Shown here: one piece after another, positions 2,980-9,138 of the stretch
Layout: each line of letters begins with the position of its first letter
Numbering within the stretch: the first letter of the stretch is position 1
NCBI GenBank assembly: GCA_937860145.1
Contig: CALMBF010000158.1
Coordinates: 1 to 36,134, forward strand
Origin: an uncultured Geobacter sp.
GTDB lineage: Bacteria; Desulfobacterota; Desulfuromonadia; Geobacterales; DSM-12255
Direction of reading: 5' to 3'
Length of the DNA: 36,134 bases
Program-made: the position numbers and the translations under genes
Notes under the pieces: model-generated
What the model was told of the DNA's origin: nothing
The model's database searches: none
Seen by the model: the letters and a program-made list of their open reading frames with translations, nothing else

Positions 2980-4194
2980 CTAATCAAGACTGGCCTCAAC
3001 TCCTTCAGGATAAAGGCGAGGGAAATAATACCCCACCATTGATGCTGGAAAACCGAGCATTACAGGACCTTTTTCCGAATCGGAAACTAAATAACCTTTT
3101 TCCAATAAACTACTGATGACCCTACGTGCTGAGCGCTCAGGCATTCCTATGATATGTGGGATTTCTCCGCGAGTTATTTCCCCGCGTAAAAATACATCTC
3201 TCAGTAAATGACCAGCTTCAGGTTTCAATGCACCAAAAGAAACTTGACGATCAACCACTGCTTGTATTCTTTTCTGCATTCCATCCAAATCCAAAAGTCC
3301 TGACATAAAATCAATTTGGTCAATAGCAACTTTAAGAAAAAATTTACAAAATCTCAACAGGCCCGCTTGTGTCAAGTTTCCACGACCATCCAGATCTCCT
3401 CTGCGAGGTTGATCTGCCCCTGCCAATGAAGCAAGATATTCTTCACGATTTCTTGCGAAACCTCTAGAAACAGTCCACAATCCATGGCCATCTATTTGGG
3501 CTTTTTTTAGATAGGCATGTGTCATAAGACGTGTAACTCGCCCGTTGCCATCCAGGAAAGGGTGAATCCATGCGAGACGGTGATGAGATGCCGCCGCCGC
3601 GATAACTTGACTTAAACCCTTTAGTTTTTGAGGGTCGTAGACTTCTTCAAATCTTTTCATAAAATCATCTAGATATTCTGATTTAGGTGGCAAGTGCCTT
3701 CCAACCTCAACCTCTAATTCCCTTGTTTTGCCAGGAATCACGTTTTCAGTTTTTCCATCTGGGCGTTGTACGACAAGATACTCTTCAGGCATCCGCTCAT
3801 AAAATTCTTTGTGTATCCAGCACAAAAAACTCTTGCTTGTAATAACTGTTCCTGCATTATCCTCAATGTGGGTCTCAATGCATTTCTGAACTTCAATATG
3901 TGCTTTGCTTTCCAGTTGTTTTGCTCTTTTTGCAGGATCTTTGGAAAAGTCTTCTCGCATAGCGCGATCAATGTCTACAGGATGGGTGTTGTGCCCTTCT
4001 ATCAAATTGGAATAGTAGCTGTTCATTTTTCTTACTAATTCCACGATTCCTCTACGGGTAACTGGATGAACAGCGGCACTAATGCCGGCAGACTTACGAA
4101 TCACCTCAATCGCCAAATCATCGAGTTCTCCCGCAGGATCAGTAGGCATCATCGGTTCCATTTCAGAAATTTTTGTATAAAAGCCATCTTCCAT
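2980..4194 (-). CDS. Fic domain protein (class II) with C-terminal winged helix
   Basis: The 404-residue protein carries the complete Fic motif HPFLDGNGRVTR (211-222). The catalytic His, the phosphate-anchoring GNGR and the last Arg are all present. An N-terminal inhibitory motif SNLIEG (62-67, [S/T]xxxE[G/N]) places it in class II, where the helix precedes the Fic fold and blocks ATP. Family members transfer AMP to Thr, Ser or Tyr of target proteins. Residues about 325-395 form a winged-helix-like region (ITRGEIPHIIGMPERSARRVISSLLEKGYL), so it may also bind DNA. A GGAG lies 7 nt before ATG 4194. A 22-bp inverted repeat at 4210-4231, repeated further upstream, suggests autoregulation. It is the only gene of its cassette. 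The target is unknown. Confidence 0.92.
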   Translation of the reverse strand: MEDGFYTKISEMEPMMPTDPAGELDDLAIEVIRKSAGISAAVHPVTRRGIVELVRKMNSYYSNLIEGHNTHPVDIDRAMREDFSKDPAKRAKQLESKAHIEVQKCIETHIEDNAGTVITSKSFLCWIHKEFYERMPEEYLVVQRPDGKTENVIPGKTRELEVEVGRHLPPKSEYLDDFMKRFEEVYDPQKLKGLSQVIAAAASHHRLAWIHPFLDGNGRVTRLMTHAYLKKAQIDGHGLWTVSRGFARNREEYLASLAGADQPRRGDLDGRGNLTQAGLLRFCKFFLKVAIDQIDFMSGLLDLDGMQKRIQAVVDRQVSFGALKPEAGHLLRDVFLRGEITRGEIPHIIGMPERSARRVISSLLEKGYLVSDSEKGPVMLGFPASMVGYYFPRLYPEGVEASLD

Positions 4195-4209: not shown

Positions 4210-4488
4210 ATCGGCCAGTATTCTGGCCGATACTGAACGTTGATATTTTAATTAATTTAAAGCCAGCTTTTGCGCGTGAATGTTTAATTACTCGGATAAT
4301 TTGGCCGGTTTATAGGCCGATCTTATAAAACAAAAAAATAAATAGAAACGAGTTATTGCAATTAATTGCACCGAAAGATATCGAGAGTTCTGGCCGATAT
4401 TTTGGCCGATGTTTTTGTACCGCAATTTATCAATAAAATAAACAGCTTTTTTTATTTTTTAATTTTGTTGGCCGATATTTTGGCCGAT
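4210..4488. repeat. Four paired GGCC repeats (TGGCCGAT, 12-bp period) upstream of fic
   Basis: Four sites each hold two GGCC cores exactly 12 bp apart. Site 1 (4210-4231) is inverted: ATCGGCCAG-TATT-CTGGCCGAT. Site 2 (4301-4321) is a degenerate direct pair. Sites 3 (4391-4410) and 4 (4469-4488) are perfect direct pairs of TGGCCGAT separated by ATTT. The sites are spaced about 78-90 bp apart. A 14-bp palindrome, TGCAATTAATTGCA, lies between sites 2 and 3 (4357-4370). The array fills the non-coding leader of fic (4195-4510), and site 1 sits 16 nt from its start codon. An operator array is the likeliest role. Confidence 0.75.
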
Positions 4489-4500
4489 CTTGCGGAACCT

Positions 4501-4531
4501 AACAATAAAAAAGGGACCATTCTGGTCCCTT
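4501..4531 (-). terminator. Rho-independent terminator on the array strand
   Basis: Read on the - strand, AAGGGACCA-GAA-TGGTCCCTT is a 9-bp stem with a 3-nt loop (4511-4531), followed by a TTTTTTATTGTT tail. It stops leftward transcription shortly after the attC at 4584-4654, before the fic leader. It should therefore insulate fic from read-through of the upstream cassettes. Confidence 0.8.
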
Positions 4532-4536
4532 ACCTC

Positions 4537-4584
4537 AGCATGATACCCTGCGGCCCACTATAGTGGGCCGCAGGGTATCATGCT
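4537..4584. repeat. 48-bp perfect palindrome
   Basis: The arms 4537-4560 and 4561-4584 are exact reverse complements with no spacer, centred on ACTATAGT and containing CCTGCGGCCCAC. It begins at the R' core of the attC at 4584-4654 and ends 5 bp before the terminator. It has no T-run. It could form a cruciform in DNA or a very stable RNA hairpin. Zero-spacer palindromes of this size are unstable in many hosts. Confidence 0.85.
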
Positions 4585-4654
4585 CGTAACATTAAATAAA
4601 TGAAATTATTTACTGACAACCGCCCGTTAGGCGGTTGTCAGTATAACGTTAAGC
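4584..4654 (-). other. attC site (second from attI)
   Basis: The R'' side is GTTAAGC (4648-4654, consensus GTTRRRY) and the opposite core is TCGTAAC (4584-4590). The centre is a perfect 14-bp stem (4611-4624 with 4630-4643) enclosing the loop CGTTA. An extra unpaired AT-rich stretch (4591-4610) makes it asymmetric and 71 bp long. It lies between the ATPase remnant and the fic cassette, where an attC is required. Confidence 0.6.
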
Positions 4655-4764
4655 TTCTATGCAGTCAATTTGTTTAAGCGACCTTTCTCTTCTGTAGTTT
4701 TTGCTCAACGCCCAAAGCCTGACCGGCCGGGACTTTTATGGCCGGTCTTGGCGCTGGTTAGATG

Positions 4765-6214
4765 TCAATTGCCAAAATTTGCAAACCGCAATTTCTTAGC
4801 AAAGCCGAAATGCACAATCAATTTCATATTCTCGTCGAAGGGCATATCGTGGTCCTTATACTTAAACAACCATCGCTTACGGTCATCCAAGTTCCCTAAT
4901 ACACTAAATTCAAAAAGTTTTTCGGCAATATTATTTAAAGACAAAGAATGACTTTCGACATATGTCATTATTTGCTTATCCTGTAACATTTTTGCTTCCA
5001 GCTCTGACATAGGAAATACACCTTTTCCGACTTTAGTGACAGCTTGAAGCGCTTCTTTCCATATTGGGAGATGACTATGTATTTCGTCTCTTAGTTCATT
5101 GTAAAACCAATTTGAATATTCTAGTTCGGCTTTTTGTACCGTTTTGAACGGTAATTTTCCTGACGTAGATTGTTTCTTGATACACTTAAGAAACTTTACA
5201 ATGTCCCTTGGTCGTTCAAATGTTCTGTTTGCAATATATGCCCAGACTGATTTGACTTTATCGGGCAACTCCTTATCAAGGTCATCTACAATAACATCCC
5301 ACCCATTTTTCTTCAAAATTGGTAACGATGCTGCAATCCTAATATTTACAAGGGATTTCAAAGAGTAGTCACCAACCTTGTCAGAATACCAGTTTAACCT
5401 TATTATGTAGTCGTCAAGTTTATTCAAGTCCGTTGTCTTCCAATGAATCGAATATGTCACTGCGTAAGGCTAATACCGGCCTCACTTTTAAGCCAGTACC
5501 GTCAAAATCTAAAAAAACATCCTCTACTGAACGAAGGAGGGATAAAAGTAACAATCTCAGATTTTTGTCTCCAGCCCTATATCCTTCATCTAATTCATCA
5601 AAAAATAAAAAGTATTGACACCTAGAACTAATTTTATGCAATTTTGATTGTATTATTTGAGATGCTTTTTGAAAATGCACATGCTCAATAGTTTGTACAG
5701 ATTGCTCTTCTGATGTACTGAGACCTAATAGTTTAGAAGTTATACTGACTTTGGCATCCTGTTTATCGAGATATGTGAGCGTGTCAACAAATGTAAATTC
5801 TTGTGGAAAATTCAATTTGATGAATTCTCGCAACTCTGAAACCTCTTGATGTGGTTCAGCGCTTTGATCAGTAGCTATAAATTTGCAAATTTCTACGAGC
5901 ATTAAAAACTTCCATACAGGAACAAACTGAGATTTGTCTTGATATGATTTATCTCTGAGTTTTCTAATTAGTGATAGGGGAAAATCCCTTAAAGATAATG
6001 ATGCCCCTTGCCACAAGGCATTAGATTCTACCTCTTCTCGTATTCTTTCTATAATAGCGGTTTTGCCGGTTCCTTTTCTGCCGATGACATATCTATATTT
6101 CCCATCCAAAATCCCGTCATACTCTGGTATTTTGAGGAAATATTTTACAAGGTTTCTGTCACCTTTGGCTTCATCTGCACCCCAGTCAACATCGACAAAA
6201 TTAAGAATTTCCAT
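4765..6214 (-). pseudogene. P-loop ATPase (Sll1717-like), interrupted by a frameshift
   Basis: Two overlapping frames together encode a protein of about 485 residues. Frame 1 starts at ATG 6214, which has AGGAG 6-7 nt upstream and is preferred over the ATG at 6241 inside the attC core. It carries Walker A GRKGTGKT (45-52) and Walker B FFDELDE (204-210). It runs to a stop at 5420, after RSDIFDSLEDNG. Frame 2 (down to 4765) continues DLNKLDDYIIRLNWYSD. Removing one G in AACGGAC near 5427 fuses them as SLEDN-DLNKLDDYIIRLNW, the continuation expected for P-loop ATPases of this type. Such ATPases occur as stand-alone or defence-associated proteins; the function here is unknown. Expect a dead gene or a one-base assembly error. 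The cassette starts at the attC at 6240. Confidence 0.75.
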
Positions 6215-6239
6215 TTTAATCTCCTGTGTATTATTTTGC

Positions 6240-6301
6240 ATCTAACGGCTTTGCGGATGACCTGAGAGCGAAGCGAAACAGGTCTATTCGCGTGTTATGT
6301 G
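6240..6301 (-). other. attC site (first from attI)
   Basis: The cores are ATCTAAC (6240-6246) and GTTATGT (6294-6300). An inner stem pairs GACCTG with CAGGTC around GAGCGAAGCG. On the - strand the R' is GTTAGAT, full consensus. The R'' arm (6294-6301) is an exact 8-base complement of the start of the first cassette at 7061-7068. The stop codon of the upstream cassette gene lies inside R'', a common arrangement. Confidence 0.88.
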
Positions 6302-7061: not shown

Positions 7062-7090
7062 ACATAACTCGTAATTGAGCCGTTAGTAGC
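7062..7090 (-). other. Candidate attI site
   Basis: Read on the - strand this is ACTAACGGCTC, a 6-nt centre, then GAGTTATGT. It forms a simple core site with inverted CTAAC...GTTA and CTC/GAG elements. The GTT at 7068-7066 is the junction with the first cassette, whose opening bases equal those stored in its attC R'' arm (6294-6301). It lies on the correct side of intI, although an extra ORF and a repeat array separate them. Confidence 0.6.
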
Positions 7091-7092
7091 AT

Positions 7093-7263
7093 GTTTACAG
7101 TATTGGAAACATGTTTATAGTATTGTAAATAAGTTTATACATCTACAAACATGCCATGTTTACAATACTATAAATATGGTGCTTGTTTTCTGCTTGGCGA
7201 ATGTTTCTAGTATTGTAAATATTGCTCGAATGTGCTTGTTACGTTGTTTCTAATACTAGTAAC
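7093..7263. repeat. Six copies of an 18-bp palindrome beside attI
   Basis: Copies start at 7093, 7113, 7133, 7158, 7203 and 7246, with approximate consensus GTTTACAATACTGTAAAC. Each is an imperfect palindrome with conserved GTTT and AAAC/AAAT ends. The first three are in exact 20-bp tandem register (about two helical turns), and the next three are 25, 45 and 43 bp apart. The last overlaps the 3' end of the ORF at 7239-7586. They could be integrase-binding direct repeats of an extended attI, or operators controlling transcription into the array. Confidence 0.8.
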
Positions 7264-7740: not shown

Positions 7741-9138
7741 ATGGTAACGGTACCGCACGAGGTCATGTCAGGCTTTGTGGAGCTGCTTCGCTCGAAGGGC
7801 ATCTCGACTGGGCAGGTCGAGTATTACCAGAAATGGTTGCGCTATTATTATGATTTTTCTGCCAAGTACCTTCATGAGCAGGACCAGTCGGTGAAGGTAC
7901 GTATGTTCCTTGATAAGCTTAAAAGCAAGGGTCAATCCCCGGTCCAATGTCAGCAGGCCGCCCACGCCGTCACCCTGTATTACGACCTTATGGCACGACA
8001 GACATCAGCTCATAAACATGATAAACCTGTGCCGTCACCGAGTGATTGCGTCGAGCCTGTCGTATCGGCTCCTCTAACGGTTACGACCGGGGAACCGGCC
8101 AGGCGTACGATGCCGACGGGTCACTTCCGGTTGTCACAGTTCAACGTGGCCGGTTACCAGGAAAAATCAGATTCTGCGGAGTGGGACGAAGTGATCGGCA
8201 AGCTGGCCGACGAGATCAAGGTCCGGCACTATTCCCGCAAGACGTTGCAGACCTATGCCCTCTGGTCGCGGCAGTTCCAACGGTTTCTGAAGGACAAGCC
8301 GCCTGAGGAACTGACCACCGAAGATGTAAAAGACTACCTGACCTTCCTGGCGGTGAAGTGCCACGTGGCGGCATCGACCCAGAACCAGGCCTTCAACTCC
8401 CTGCTGTTCCTCTTCCGCCATGCCCTGAAGCGGGACTTCGGCGCACTGCGGGATGTGCCGCGGGCGAAGAAGTCGCTCTACATTCCCACCGTGCTGTCAC
8501 GGGAGGAGATCGACAGCATCCTGGAGCATCTCTACTTCCCCTACAGCCTCATCGTGAAGCTGCTGTTCGGCTGCGGTTTGCGGCTGTTCGAGTGCCTGCA
8601 GCTCCGGGTGCGGGATTTCAATTTCGACGCCGGAGTACTGACGGTGCACGGCAAGGGGAAGAAGGACCGGACCGTGCCGTTGCCCGAATCCATCAACGTC
8701 GAGTTCACGCGGCAGTTGCTACGGGTGAAAACACTGCATGAAAAGGACCTGGCGGAAGGGTACGACGGGGTGTTTCTGGACGATGCGGTGGAACGGAAAT
8801 TCCCCAAGGCGCCGAAGGAGCTGCTGCACCAGTGGTTCTTCCCGCAAAAGGAGCTGACTCTGGTGGCGGAGAACGGACAGCGGCGACGGGCGCATGTGCA
8901 TGAATCGAATCTGCAGAAAGCGCTCTATATCGCGGTGCGGAAGGCGGGTATCACCAAGCGGGTGACGGCCCACACCTTCCGCCACTCCTTCGCTACCCAC
9001 CTCTTGCAGGCCGGTTACGACATCCGCACCATCCAGACCAAGCTCGGCCATGCCAGCCTGAAGACCACCATGATCTATACCCACTGCGTTCCGGTTCGCA
9101 CGATCAAGGAGGCGAGGAGTCCTCTGGACCTGGAGTGA
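7741..9138 (+). CDS. intI: Integron integrase (IntI-type tyrosine recombinase) with extra N-terminal domain
   Basis: The 465-residue tyrosine recombinase has all catalytic residues: Arg281 (GCGLRLFE), Lys305 (HGKGKKDR), His411/Arg414 (HTFRHSFATHLL), His437 (LGHAS) and nucleophile Tyr446 (TTMIYTH). Between Lys and HxxR it carries the insertion that marks IntI against XerC/D (DLAEGYDGVFLDDAVERKFP, then WFFPQKEL). It ends RSPLDL, as many IntI proteins do. A normal core-binding domain occupies about 148-235. It differs from the usual 320-340 residues by about 130 extra N-terminal residues: a second SAM-like helical domain (about 5-85) and a linker. AGAGG sits 6 nt before the ATG. It should recombine attC single-strand hairpins with attI. 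Confidence 0.92.
   Translation: MVTVPHEVMSGFVELLRSKGISTGQVEYYQKWLRYYYDFSAKYLHEQDQSVKVRMFLDKLKSKGQSPVQCQQAAHAVTLYYDLMARQTSAHKHDKPVPSPSDCVEPVVSAPLTVTTGEPARRTMPTGHFRLSQFNVAGYQEKSDSAEWDEVIGKLADEIKVRHYSRKTLQTYALWSRQFQRFLKDKPPEELTTEDVKDYLTFLAVKCHVAASTQNQAFNSLLFLFRHALKRDFGALRDVPRAKKSLYIPTVLSREEIDSILEHLYFPYSLIVKLLFGCGLRLFECLQLRVRDFNFDAGVLTVHGKGKKDRTVPLPESINVEFTRQLLRVKTLHEKDLAEGYDGVFLDDAVERKFPKAPKELLHQWFFPQKELTLVAENGQRRRAHVHESNLQKALYIAVRKAGITKRVTAHTFRHSFATHLLQAGYDIRTIQTKLGHASLKTTMIYTHCVPVRTIKEARSPLDLE

Follow-up and report, generated by a model that had tools for sequence, protein, structure and literature searches.

A conserved direct-repeat array in the leader of a class II fic gene is predicted to be an operator read by the Fic protein's own winged helix

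The leader of a fic gene in a 36,134-nucleotide stretch of DNA from an uncultured Geobacter sp. (contig CALMBF010000158.1) contains a series of paired GGCC motifs, which raises the question of what reads them. The stretch, referred to here as the window, is the whole contig of a 4-Mb genome. A previous reading based on the letters alone (the sequence-only reading) had described four sites with two GGCC cores each, 12 bp apart, spaced 78–90 bp, in front of a gene whose Fic product itself ends in a winged helix, and had proposed that this enzyme binds its own leader. Because the conservation, pitch, and orientation of the repeats have now been computed, as has the covariation between the repeated word and the recognition helix of Fic, we consider the array to be the operator of fic, read by Fic's own winged helix and limiting Fic's own synthesis, with a probability of about 0.82 on this sequence evidence. 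Each winged helix would read one half-site of ~8 bp, here ATCGGCCA, and two or more protomers would bind head-to-tail on half-sites 12 bp apart; with the runs of half-sites surrounding the promoter, Fic would restrict its own production.

Matches to GGCC-N8-GGCC begin at positions 4213, 4303, 4392, and 4470 in the fic leader, exactly as the sequence-only reading had placed them, and the first-to-first spacings of 90, 89, and 78 bp agree with the range it gave. The window holds nine such matches against 2.47 expected (standard deviation 1.57), a number reached in none of 100 shuffles; the other five are scattered outside the fic leader. On the fic (minus) strand the architecture is ATCGGCCA-N4-ATCGGCCA, with half-sites 12 bp apart, in four runs across 4212–4488 (Table 1). 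With a 20-bp matrix derived from 46 paired sites at the 20 other close-orthologue loci, these four runs come out as the top four matches in the window, and the best site outside the leader scores 7.7 bits.

All half-sites share one direction on the fic strand. The description of the upper runs as direct repeats therefore stands, whereas that of run 4, which adjoins the start codon, as inverted is not supported. This run is literally near-palindromic, ATCGGCCAGAATACTGGCCGAT; since GGCC reads the same on both strands, the run looks inverted. Its GGCCGAT occurs in the window only, among 21 close-orthologue leaders (window included); a palindrome model was accordingly dropped, and a degenerate copy in direct orientation is the better description of the run. 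Nor does the array occupy the whole leader, as had been thought, since a terminator-like hairpin and a 24-bp palindrome lie upstream of the runs.

Table 1. Features of the fic locus and its surroundings in the window (positions on the forward strand; an empty cell means that no strand is given).
Feature	Position	Strand	Basis or remark
Operator run 1 (predicted)	4469–4488	−	ATCGGCCA twice; 37.2 bits
Operator run 2 (predicted)	4391–4410	−	ATCGGCCA twice; 37.2 bits
Operator run 3 (predicted)	4302–4321	−	ATCGGCCT and ACCGGCCA; 25.8 bits
Operator run 4 (predicted), adjoining the start codon	4212–4231	−	ATCGGCCA and degenerate copy; 14.3 bits; same place in orthologues
AT-rich block between runs 1 and 2, partly conserved; promoter candidate	4411–4446	−	Alignment of 17 close-orthologue leaders
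Intrinsic-terminator-like hairpin upstream of the array	4511–4531	−	Similar GGACC...GGTCC-T stretches in several orthologues
Perfect 24-bp palindrome upstream of the array	4537–4584		Similar or partial in L023, L033, L007, and L013
fic gene, 404-residue class II Fic protein with C-terminal winged helix	2980–4194	−	Pfam Fic PF02661, 4.9e-15
Inhibitory-helix motif S62-NLIE-G67, (S/T)xxxE(G/N)	3994–4011	−	27-sequence alignment
Catalytic Fic motif H211PFLDGNGR219	3538–3564	−	27-sequence alignment
C-terminal winged helix-turn-helix, residues 327–380	3055–3216	−	AlphaFold2 (AF2) elements H327–337, H342–349, H353–365, E369–371, E378–380
Recognition helix 353–365 (ERSARRVISSLLE), including R357 and R358	3100–3138	−	AF2 model; covaries with the half-site word
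Integron integrase gene	7741–9138		TIGR02249, 365.3 bits (cut-off 265); fic to its left

By its motifs, the protein is a class II adenosine monophosphate (AMP)-transferase. It contains HPFx(D/E)GNGR as HPFLDGNGR at 211–219 and, N-terminal to this Fic motif, SNLIEG at 62–67, in keeping with the (S/T)xxxE(G/N) definition given in excerpts of PMC9755527. In the 27 aligned sequences (window included), N63, I65, E66, and G67 are invariant and S62 nearly so, as are, without exception, H211, P212, F213, and D215–R219. An AF2 model built from 24 aligned sequences has a mean predicted local distance difference test score of 88, and the recognition helix falls in a well-modelled region. The elements at 327–380 bear out the terminal winged helix of the sequence-only reading, the name being our own reading of the modelled elements. 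A Foldseek comparison gave 7xux (CccR) as the closest solved fold (TMq 0.71, 19% identity, 381 columns), followed by 8cil (CbFic2).

If the array served this gene, it should accompany fic elsewhere, and the sequence-only reading had staked its proposal on conservation of the paired motifs upstream of fic homologues. Leaders were taken from a genome collection, from genome searches, and from plasmids, with start codons assigned by rule. Close orthologues, 81–93% identical over the full fic gene, come from records titled Geobacter, Geotalea, Geobacteraceae, Desulfuromonadaceae, Deltaproteobacteria, and, once, Desulfobacterales, whereas distant homologues have 38–65% identity. Other titled records are Balneolaceae, Cytophaga, Chitinophaga, and other Bacteroidetes, and the plasmid records are mostly Alphaproteobacteria, plus Hymenobacter, Pseudomonas, Stutzerimonas, and Acinetobacter. 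Of 146 matching loci, 137 were usable (in nine the N-terminus was missing or the upstream sequence short), and removal of 30 with identical leaders left 107 distinct leaders of 300 bp, which belong to 38 protein clusters; the clusters are related, so that counts overstate independence. One further genome search, largely within the same phylum, added mostly duplicates.

Repeats at a distance, or lag, of 12 bp were found in 21/21 distinct close-orthologue leaders (window included) and 29/38 distant leaders of the first set of 59, where 20 dinucleotide shuffles average 0.05/21 and 0.1/38; the motifs are thus conserved as the proposal demanded. Over the whole collection, exact 7-mers holding three or more G/C recur at lag 12 in 83/107 leaders (25.8/38 when weighted by cluster), the next-best lags between 4 and 40 being lag 24 (11/107) and lag 10 (6/107). 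The same lag is rare in the first 300 nt of the gene (2/107), in an inner stretch (7/107), and in the 300 nt downstream (1/105). A core-pair criterion finds lag-12 pairs in 96/107 leaders.

Orientation hardly varies. Counts on the gene strand versus the opposite strand are 115 versus 2 for TCGGCCA, 72 versus 0 for TCGGCAA, and 32 versus 3 for CCCGCAA. Two half-sites make up 141 of 156 runs, the remaining 15 having three to five. Among 60 spacings between neighboring runs, 24 fall at 87–92 bp, 15 at 76–79, and five at 68–69. Many distant homologues have a two-run layout, at about −120 and −30, and close orthologues mostly carry two extra runs upstream. The orientation of the runs is the same, and their distance to the fic start similar, in chromosomes and plasmids. 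One plasmid relative, on an Agrobacterium pAt plasmid (L163), is a tandem pair of Fic genes at 41–1222 and 1495–2733.

Conservation by itself does not name the binder; the variation of the repeat bears on it. At the same pitch, the half-site word varies by group, from ATCGGCCA to ATCGGCA, AACCCGCAA, ATCGGAAT, AAGCGGACA, and others. We numbered the recognition helix so that PERSARR of the window is positions 1–7 and scored the 32 of 38 clusters that have both an aligned helix and a pair, the other six not having both; a pair is defined by similarity of the two half-sites, whatever the letter at the variable base. With Arg-Arg at positions 6 and 7, the second base after CGG is C in 11/11 clusters and 31/31 sequences; with any other helix it is A in 21/21 clusters by majority and C in 0/61 sequences (Fisher 7.8e-9 by cluster). 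Two residues of Fic thus predict one base of the DNA word. L074 is weak (three C, two A, one T), and L029 is tied between A and T, not C; for L124 and L125 the scores came from CCGG pairs near −264 that arose by chance, and their true repeats, at lag 13, also have A. An earlier count (10/1 versus 2/19), in which ACCGGCA entered as both a CCG and a CGG core, is superseded by these numbers. When position 6 is not Arg, the core is CCG rather than CGG in 2/4 clusters versus 0/28 of the others (p 0.012), which is only suggestive of a rule for the first Arg.

We also made a tree (62 rows) of the protein sequence that precedes the winged helix. Seven changes of helix state and seven of the base fall on it, and 4/4 independent pairs on well-supported branches agree. 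The rule, fixed beforehand, was also applied to 21 later loci, of which 17 were used; L155 and L169 were dropped for short upstream sequence, L161 for want of a usable start, and L167 for a missing N-terminus. All 13 loci with a pair have the predicted base (11 C and two A), one of them (L159) on a chance pair. The four without a pair are L160, L164, L165, and L166, the last also without an aligned helix. In a second look, after the misses were known, a lag-13 reading gave ATCGGCA for L159, L160, and L165, and AGTGGCA for L164.

Core pairs at lag 12 occur in 0/20 other Fic genes of the same order, which were picked by hand and whose C-terminal domains are unclassified. In the 4-Mb genome of the window, a stringent pattern (up to two mismatches) yields only two perfect runs, both in this leader. 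Taken together, the match between helix and word, the later loci, and the lack of core pairs at the 20 other genes support Fic as the binder, and so favor the earlier proposal that it binds its own leader, while physical binding and head-to-tail assembly are what such a pattern would predict.

Several observations weigh against this assignment. There is no core pair at lag 12 in 11 of the 107 leaders, and the pitch is 13 bp at six fic loci on Alphaproteobacterial plasmids (L124, L125, L159, L160, L164, and L165), a seventh such locus, L128, having both 12- and 13-bp pitch. Exact lag-12 7-mers are present in 2/20 of the other Fic genes, the highest of the lags scanned. A looser pattern is uninformative about sites elsewhere, with 42 matches in the window's own genome versus 16 for a reversed control; it matched 37/38 genomes, and we take these matches for G+C-rich coding background. 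The sign test on the four supported pairs of the tree gives p 0.125 and with four pairs cannot reach 0.05, and not all of the later loci are independent, since some are related to members of the first set.

How would such an operator act? By analogy with CccR, discussed below, binding would cause repression rather than activation, and the purpose is likely a low, self-limited level of a potentially toxic class II AMP-transferase. In the two-run layout the runs would flank or overlap the promoter. A sigma-70 scan found no promoter within the array, its sole call lying far upstream at 4640–4668; since it called none in the AT-rich blocks between the runs, we infer only from the layout that the promoter is around or between them. 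The spacings of the runs show some phasing at 10.5 bp (R 0.56, p about 4e-4), although the 25 entries are related, which inflates the test, and periods of 10, 11, and 12 bp also give p of 0.011 or less. The runs may cooperate; the helical phasing is only suggestive of looping between them.

The sequence-only reading had called it unusual for a Fic enzyme to bind its own multi-site leader, a claim that must be tempered, as a Fic autorepressor with a helix-turn-helix domain has been published. CccR (YPK_0951) of Yersinia pseudotuberculosis, a type VI secretion system effector, is likewise a class II Fic protein with a C-terminal helix-turn-helix, and, according to the portions of the paper available, it binds and represses its own promoter via the C-terminal domain, as a dimer on two inverted 10-bp repeats 26 bp apart (PMC9755527). 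What differs here is the operator, with half-sites of ~8 bp, direct repetition at 12 bp, and several runs, an arrangement that does not conform to the inverted operator of CccR. CbFic2 of Coxiella burnetii, too, is a class II Fic protein with a C-terminal winged helix; excerpts of PMC10628234 report that this domain binds DNA and that DNA alters dimerization and activity, but the protein, which AMPylates histones, was tested with random DNA and the excerpts name no operator. The anti-phage protein SoFic (Sofic) resembles the present one in combining class II Fic with a C-terminal domain, which is described as a toxicity regulator in parts of PMC12249575. The PADLOC SoFic profile matches at 1e-29; despite this, an assignment to SoFic was rejected, because the window Fic scores 28.9 bits against a cut-off of 550 for NCBIfam NF046030.

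Beyond these, the operator of phd-doc is an inverted repeat (PMC4257102, in part), and the unrelated, non-Fic repressor NanR, of the GntR family, has an operator built of repeats, (GGTATA)3 (PMC8012715, in part). Judged by titles and abstract openings, the papers listed in capped searches of the open-licence literature include neither a Fic operator of direct repeats nor a rule linking residue to base; to that extent both are new, whereas Fic self-repression is known from CccR, the sole Fic protein with a mapped operator in the literature found, as far as the accessible text goes. The operator of this subfamily can be recognized from sequence in distant bacteria, whereby binding, repression, specificity, and the coupling of DNA binding to AMPylation become directly testable, and the contrast between direct repeats and the CccR dimer on inverted repeats poses the question of how Fic proteins assemble on DNA.

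The array could instead be the operator of a separate regulator, encoded elsewhere and controlling fic. The leader repeats as such demonstrate conservation only and would fit this, but the half-site words track Fic's recognition helix in several lineages, and the annotated plasmid loci share no single neighbor, even if some groups do (repC, an exonuclease gene); we regard such a regulator as quite improbable. Covariation with the DNA-reading helix bears in the same way on two further explanations. If the repeats worked at the RNA level, as part of a structured leader transcript, they would be expected in the leader, where they are, and one of the runs can be written as a hairpin followed by a T-rich tail, although not on the fic strand but on the other one; the constant pitch of the direct repeats, with a variable base that goes with the helix state, makes this very improbable. 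Were the repeats iterons, or a recombination element belonging to mobile DNA and independent of fic, this would account for tandem copies at 12 bp and an adjoining palindrome, and a gene for replication or partition, repC or repA, is near fic at four plasmid loci (L124, L125, L159, and L128). Yet the word covaries with the helix, orientation and distance to the fic start are constant or similar in chromosomes and plasmids, and no replication gene was recognized among the 8 and 7 proteins scanned near fic in the window, so that we give this explanation almost no credence.

A self-operator could also do more than repress, and an extension that does not exclude it is that the array doubles as an antitoxin-like scaffold, on which lined-up protomers would be inactive or deAMPylating, so that release from the DNA, or its loss, would free the active enzyme. 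The presence of several runs before one gene, and of runs with more than two half-sites, is consistent with this, as is the shift of the C-terminal domain reported on ATP binding by EcSofic (PMC12249575, in the parts available). In CccR, however, a mutation abolishing dimerization and repression has a marginal effect on toxicity and AMPylation, according to excerpts of PMC9755527, and we consider the extension unlikely. Unlikely to the same degree is its generalization, namely a broad Fic subfamily, spanning Geobacteraceae and relatives, Balneolaceae, other Bacteroidota, and Alphaproteobacteria, in which a cis scaffold of 12-/13-bp repeats would, beyond self-repression under a residue-to-base rule, be a DNA-based antitoxin on which head-to-tail binding sets the catalytic state, so that loss or disturbance of the DNA would free the activity.

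Upstream of the predicted operator, parts of 4511–4584, which comprises the hairpin and the palindrome, recur at the orthologous loci L023, L033, L007, and L013 and might mark where a mobile fic unit ends; an arm of the palindrome has no second copy in the window's own genome at up to three mismatches. In the window, fic has an integron integrase gene nearby, and plasmids carry relatives. The integrase open reading frame has 465 residues, and the match begins at residue 152, leaving ~150 extra N-terminal residues. For three attC candidates, picked by motif, folding as DNA gives z of 0.78, −2.88, and −1.01. Between the minus-strand genes and the integrase, partly palindromic TTTACAnTATTGTAAA-type motifs occupy 7090–7234, possibly a second operator-like array, for a repressor; a 35-nt repeat family has five copies spanning 7070–7234, with inverted 20-nt arms that are 95% complementary. 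A P-loop ATPase of the Sll1717 family is apparently split into overlapping open reading frames, N-terminal at 5420–6241 and C-terminal at 4765–5460. Several plasmid relatives of fic lie beside genes annotated as defense or toxin–antitoxin systems, namely Shedu and ParDE (L161), AbiEi (L122), and BrnTA (L127), and others have VapBC (L130) or TIR proteins (L118) as annotated neighbors.
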